From NCBI GenBank assembly GCA_003697085.1, contig RFFU01000048.1:1-5046 (forward strand): a DNA stretch of 5,046 nucleotides, written 5' to 3'. The notes beneath the pieces are model-generated. The model did no database searches. It was given only the letters and a program-made list of their open reading frames with translations, and was not told the origin of the DNA. The position numbers and the translations under genes were made by a program. Positions 4,060 through 4,568 of this stretch are shown in pieces (within the stretch, counting starts at the first letter, position 1; every line of letters begins with the position of its first letter). The stretch comes from Candidatus Hydrogenedentota bacterium (lineage in GTDB: Bacteria > UBA8481 > J006).

Positions 4060-4119
4060 ACCGCCGCCGGCAGTCTAGATTATGGATTCGTCTCTCACGA
4101 CTGATGTACCACTGTCAGA

Positions 4120-4148
4120 ATTATCCGGGAAAGGGCAATGTTTGTCAA
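4120..4148 (-). promoter_or_regulatory. Sigma-70-type promoter for carD
   Basis: On the - strand a perfect TTGACA (4143-4148) is followed by a 17-nt spacer and GATAAT (4120-4125, five of six matches to TATAAT). The predicted transcript start near 4113 gives a leader of about 105 nt before carD. This is the best promoter-like sequence I see in the window. The -35 box overlaps the last codon and stop of the HEPN gene remnant. Confidence 0.75.
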
Positions 4149-4234
4149 CGGAGAAATGCTTGCGATTTGCGAACGGAGAGGAGTGAGTTCCGGGCGTTGT
4201 TGATGTAATAGCGTGCCAAGGCGTCATTTGTTAT
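4145..4234 (-). pseudogene. Truncated start of a HEPN-domain gene (toxin-like partner of MNT)
   Basis: The - strand frame from ATA 4232-4234 to TGA 4145-4147 reads ITNDALARYYINNARNSLL and about ten further residues. This matches what I recall of the opening of HEPN proteins encoded next to MNT nucleotidyltransferases (MTN..LAR.Y...A...L). Those proteins are about four to five times longer; the helical bundle and the RNase motif (R-x4-6-H) are absent here. The start codon is ATA instead of ATG. It overlaps the nucleotidyltransferase stop by four bases (ATAA, where intact modules often have ATGA). The remnant runs straight into the carD promoter. Family assignment rests on a short stretch plus the neighbouring remnant. 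Confidence 0.6.
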
Positions 4235-4490
4235 ATCGAGAAGGTCTCTCCCCACTTTAAATCGGGCTTGAGAATCCATTACCACCGCGACCCGCGGAAA
4301 ACACGTCGCGATCCTAGTTCGACCAGGCGTTTTCGAAGGCGGTCCAGCGTTTCCTCCAGGAACCCGTCACGGTCCTGGAGGAGAATGACGTCTTGGGTCA
4401 TACCAAGAGAAGCGAAAAGAAGCATTCCGCCCCCGTTTCCGTGCGAATGACGGGAGAAGACGTGGCGAACCAGGGGATGAGAAAGAGAAT
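4231..4490 (-). pseudogene. Broken C-terminal half of an MNT-type nucleotidyltransferase
   Basis: On the - strand one frame reads SSPVIRTETGAECFFSLLLV and stops at TGA 4398-4400. The next frame continues from ATG 4401 as MTQDVILLQDRDGFLEETL, then DRLRKRLVELGSRRVFRGSRW, a TAA stop (4279-4281), and WILKPDLKWGETFSI up to TAA 4231-4233. Family members, as I recall them, run LLLDMTEDAVILYDRDGFF...RRVWRGN.WYWDLKPD..PGEVFEI without gaps. One deleted A near 4402 (GGATATG to GGTATG) and one Tyr codon changed to TAA explain both breaks. The N-terminal catalytic part (GS..D.D motif) is missing; the sequence becomes unrecognisable toward the porin terminator. In intact modules this protein is the antitoxin that modifies HEPN. 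It is almost certainly non-functional here. Confidence 0.65.
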
Positions 4491-4510
4491 TTAAAGAGCG
4501 TTAGGAGAAG

Positions 4511-4543
4511 AAAAAACCGGGGACCGCGCAAGCGGTCCCCGGT
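4511..4543 (-). terminator. Rho-independent terminator of the porin-like gene
   Basis: On the - strand CCGGGGACCGC and GCGGTCCCCGG form a perfect 11-bp GC-rich stem around a TTGC loop, followed at once by six T and then a pyrimidine-rich stretch. It begins 25 nt after the porin stop codon, as expected. Read on the + strand the A run comes before the stem and no T run follows, so termination is directed leftward only. It should insulate carD from the porin transcript. Confidence 0.92.
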
Positions 4544-4568
4544 CCGAGCTCGTCCGAACGAATCGGAA

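Follow-up and report, generated by a model that had tools for sequence, protein, structure and literature searches.

A decayed middle piece of an MNT-HEPN module in the gap between a porin gene and carD

Introduction

The window considered here, by which we mean the whole 5,046-base stretch of DNA that was analysed, contains a gap between two ordinary genes: on the minus strand, the intrinsic terminator of a porin gene is separated by several hundred bases from a promoter-like site of carD, a gene whose product carries CarD domains. What, if anything, fills that gap? The preliminary description, made from the sequence of the window, had placed there, at 4145-4490, the wreck of a toxin-antitoxin module made up of a nucleotidyltransferase (MNT) and a HEPN protein. 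As we detail below, this reading stands in its gene order, strand, position of the overlap and lesions, and its location is right, with the homology running from approximately 4480 to 4163 and thus ending slightly inside the limits originally given. We conclude that these roughly 320 bases of the minus strand are very probably the functionless remnant of a two-gene MNT-HEPN module of the PF01909 plus PF05168 kind, of which the decayed middle piece is left. Of the MNT gene the C-terminal half survives, and of the HEPN gene the first 15-24 codons, in order and in register; this surviving part carries one frameshift and one stop and has lost the HEPN start codon. Absent are the catalytic MNT half with its GSX10DXD motif (approximately 83 residues) and most of the HEPN protein, including its conserved RExxFY region (approximately 115 residues). 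Neither missing part left a trace in either flank of the relic, and neither has a match elsewhere in the 145-contig assembly. The features of the locus are collected in Table 1.

Table 1. Coordinates of the relic, its lesions and its flanking signals (window positions)
Feature	Position	Strand	Evidence
Upstream MNT pseudogene piece, profile positions ~84-105, frame FATSSPVIRTETGAECFFSLLLV	4407..4480, confident from 4472	-	Fixed-register p 1e-5 to 4e-5; frameshift-tolerant alignment
Frameshift, one-base offset between the two MNT pieces (~4402)	4400..4404	-	Frameshift-tolerant alignment; three-frame translation
Main MNT pseudogene piece, profile positions 106-163, C-terminus, ending LKPDLKWGETFSI	4234..4407	-	66 bits; homologues E 6e-14
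In-frame TAA within the conserved W-x-W motif	4279..4281	-	Three-frame translation; homologue search; profile
MNT stop/HEPN start overlap, ATAA (relatives usually ATGA)	4231..4234	-	Comparison with intact loci
HEPN pseudogene N-terminus, 15-24 residues ITNDALARYYINNARNSLLSVRKS	4163..4234	-	Fixed-register p 2e-5 to 6e-5
Porin gene intrinsic terminator, upstream edge of the relic	4514..4545	-	z -4.9
carD promoter-like site TTGACA-17-GATAAT, downstream edge of the relic	4120..4148	-	11/12 consensus matches, consensus match only

Results

On the minus strand of 4100-4510, one frame reads MTQDVILLQDRDGFLEETLDRLRKRLVELGSRRVFRGSRW, the in-frame TAA, WILKPDLKWGETFSI and a stop at 4233-4231, and another frame reads ITNDALARYYINNARNSLLSVRKSQAFLR. 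We searched 386 genomes with the 53-residue MNT piece, its stop written as X, and recovered, besides the window itself, intact ORFs of 166-200 residues, with no stop inside, from genomes spread over many families (best E 6.2e-14, 57% identity). Scored against a profile built from 11 intact relatives, the main piece reaches 66 bits, and its homology places it with the PF01909-type MNTs of MNT-HEPN pairs; the MNT part is a relic of a member of that family and not a working member. The upstream piece, WFATSSPVIRTETGAECFFSLL (4472-4407), lies in the other frame and fits the profile in the register that the main piece dictates, with the background for this fixed-register score taken from G000, the genome that carries the relic. 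The continuation of the main piece in its own frame upstream of approximately 4402 was also considered as MNT sequence, and was rejected because it scores as background. A frameshift-tolerant alignment joins the two MNT pieces at 104 bits (profile positions 84-163, window 4472-4234), compared with a maximum of 18.9 among 100 dinucleotide shuffles. All three segments proposed in the preliminary description were thus recovered, together with the missing base and the TAA to which it had attributed the breaks, and the frameshift-allowing translated search of this strand that it had set as a check yielded a clear nucleotidyltransferase match, and a HEPN match in fixed register.

The homology begins at profile position 84, and the remnant corresponds to the C-terminal extension of the protein; in an intact relative, the Pfam domain NTP_transf_2 spans residues 13-87. 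A Pfam search of the raw fragments returned no match even at E 10, a DNA search of 60 relatives found short, chance-level matches only, and searches of plasmids and viral contigs with the MNT piece gave no match. In a tree built from the C-terminal 80 columns, the remnant is not firmly placed, and its branch length of 0.99 is unexceptional beside a median of 0.67. The codon-position G+C of the main piece is similar to that of neighbouring genes. Over the same piece, mean identity is 46% between the remnant and the intact relatives and 50% among the intact relatives themselves; the closeness of these values suggests, if weakly, that inactivation was recent relative to the age of the family.

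The remainder of the relic belongs to the HEPN gene. The 4-nt overlap usual between the two genes had been claimed for this site, and it is found at the right position; its sequence is not the usual one, since the relic has ATAA where relatives usually have ATGA, and the HEPN start codon is therefore gone too. The residues that follow the ATAA, TNDALARYYINNAR (read from 4234 as ITNDALARYYINNAR), fit the N-terminus of PF05168 HEPN proteins at exactly the expected offset (p ~2e-5 in fixed register). When the register is left free, the score of this piece is non-significant; because significance requires the fixed offset, the weight of the HEPN piece comes from its position. The complete HEPN domain, conserved polar residues included, is not present, as 15-24 of approximately 139 residues are left, and the flanks contain no HEPN sequence past about residue 24.

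The intact comparison set consists of 11 MNT loci from distant genomes, in 8 of which a HEPN (PF05168) gene adjoins the MNT. At L034, for example, the MNT domain is recognised as PF01909 (E 1.9e-7) and its neighbour as PF05168 (E 2.5e-15). An ATGA overlap was seen directly in L034, L041, L042, L051 and L052, and in L036 and L040 the HEPN gene lies beside the MNT without overlap. The intact MNTs start with the nucleotidyltransferase domain and end in a W-Y/F-W-x-L-K-P-D-like motif. With the intact pairs at L034, L041 and L042, the relic has in common the MNT C-terminus ELGSxRI...WYWxLKPDxKxGE, the gene order, the strand, the position of the 4-nt overlap and the HEPN N-terminus MTNxxLAxxY; in contrast to them, it lacks the catalytic MNT half and most of the HEPN, and has the frameshift, the stop and the lost start codon.

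A characterized two-gene module of the same general layout is the type VII system HepT/MntA of Shewanella oneidensis (SO_3166/SO_3165), in which the MNT AMPylates a tyrosine in the HEPN RNase, by way of GSX10DXD in the one protein and RX4HXY in the other (PMC7641770). The preliminary description had cited such type VII-like modification and silencing as known for MNT-HEPN pairs. On the MNT side this agrees with the intact relatives, all 11 of which carry the GSX10DXD motif of MntA. On the HEPN side it does not: RX4HXY is absent from the HEPN proteins of all 8 intact relatives that have one (0/8), and the corresponding region is missing in the window. HepT itself belongs to PF01934, whereas the HEPN proteins of the relic's subfamily are PF05168, with RExxFY and without RX4HXY; a survey notes that the conserved H can be replaced in PF05168 proteins (PMC3710099). 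With the MNT motif present and the HEPN motif absent, type VII-like action in this subfamily is plausible but unproven.

The relic lies in a 3.2-Mb draft genome of 145 contigs, on a contig of 5046 bases. No other close copy of its MNT type is present in this genome, and direct comparison with the other MNT loci of the genome gave weak matches only, the best of them to a locus on contig C60. That locus also holds the sole HEPN of the relic's subfamily elsewhere in the genome (205 bits to the subfamily profile, likewise without RX4HXY). It is a separate and intact pair with an ATGA overlap, and its MNT carries a HicB-like domain at the N-terminus and shows no more than distant similarity to the remnant; at L030, the stretch examined there, positions 1815-845 of the minus strand encode the HicB-like domain (PF05534) fused to the MNT N-terminus and then the HEPN. 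Pairs of other kinds are found on C129 (PF01934) and C106 (PF08780), both with RX4HXY. A further MNT-HEPN pair was observed on C42 (L022, 1500-1870), where one frame covers PF05168 positions 1-67 and a different frame 70-114 of the HEPN, which points either to a second module in decay or to a sequencing error.

Discussion

How might such a piece have come to lie in the gap? MNT-HEPN modules are documented as mobile, related genomes differing by recent gains or losses (PMC2701414), and the relic fits this pattern. A mobile module would once have occupied the space from the porin terminator to the carD promoter-like site; deletion would then have removed its outer parts, and the remaining middle piece would have decayed without function. 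The first of these steps, that the module formerly at the site was intact, goes beyond the evidence, and a fragment already truncated on arrival must be weighed against it. On that alternative, recombination brought in the MNT-HEPN junction only, and no intact module ever stood here, which would account for missing parts that have no trace on either side. The nearest relative compared at the porin-carD locus, G001, is of the same order, and at its locus (L033) no MNT-HEPN module lies upstream of carD; what stands there is a putative adenine phosphoribosyltransferase-like ORF, as read from its translation. Since that gene differs, L033 offers no clean empty site, and the flank appears to have been rearranged, which again favours truncated arrival. 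An intact MNT-HEPN pair does exist in the same relative (L042, on G001:C204), at a locus other than carD. Nothing decisive speaks against truncated arrival; deletion in place, however, needs no event beyond the insertion of a normal mobile module, and we regard arrival of a ready-made fragment as rather unlikely, while giving it some weight.

Whichever way it came, the relic should do nothing, because it lacks a catalytic half, a HEPN body and any promoter-like site of its own, and has a terminator in front. It is highly improbable that the stretch regulates carD or that its short frame is expressed as an antitoxin-like peptide binding HEPN partners. This frame starts with an ATG at 4425, in the MNT frame, and encodes 48 residues of the MNT C-terminus (4425-4279), conserved about as well as in intact relatives. 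The frame, however, is known from a single genome, a strong terminator immediately precedes it, a consensus scan found no promoter-like site belonging to it, and it ends inside the conserved WxW motif. We consider it just as improbable that the 48-residue product continues to be made and, as a stand-alone scrap of antitoxin, binds the intact HEPN encoded on C60.

An error of sequencing or assembly in an intact gene pair is scarcely credible; the draft is in 145 contigs and the contig of the relic is short, but an error would have to explain some 83 MNT and 115 HEPN residues missing besides the three small lesions, with sensible flanks (a terminator and a promoter-like site) on both sides and the missing parts nowhere else in the assembly. 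Equally hard to credit is the reading of 4397-4451, upstream of 4400, as a non-coding dispersed palindromic repeat, which was suggested by the inverted GTCAT/ATGAC ends of this 55-bp stretch and by one GTCATTCCGAG...CTCGGAATGAC element in the other examined stretches of the genome (L005), and which we dropped given that the stretch has no close copy in the genome and matches the MNT profile in register (p ~1e-5).

The relic is an ordinary gene remnant, and the module it comes from is of a kind already known. Its recovery demonstrates that the decayed remains of an MNT-HEPN module can be identified far beneath the thresholds used in gene calling. It also supplies, from a lineage with sparse sampling, one instance in which a module of a kind described as mobile (PMC2701414) was lost; the view of how MNT-HEPN modules work is unchanged by it.

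Two further observations were made in passing. The element at L005 (positions 109-216) is 108 bp long with inverted ends, and perhaps belongs to a family of palindromic repeats dispersed through this genome. At the other end of the window, an ORF on the plus strand (16-945), upstream of a carbon-nitrogen hydrolase gene, matches M29 aminopeptidases only weakly and below threshold (PF02073, E 2e-4).
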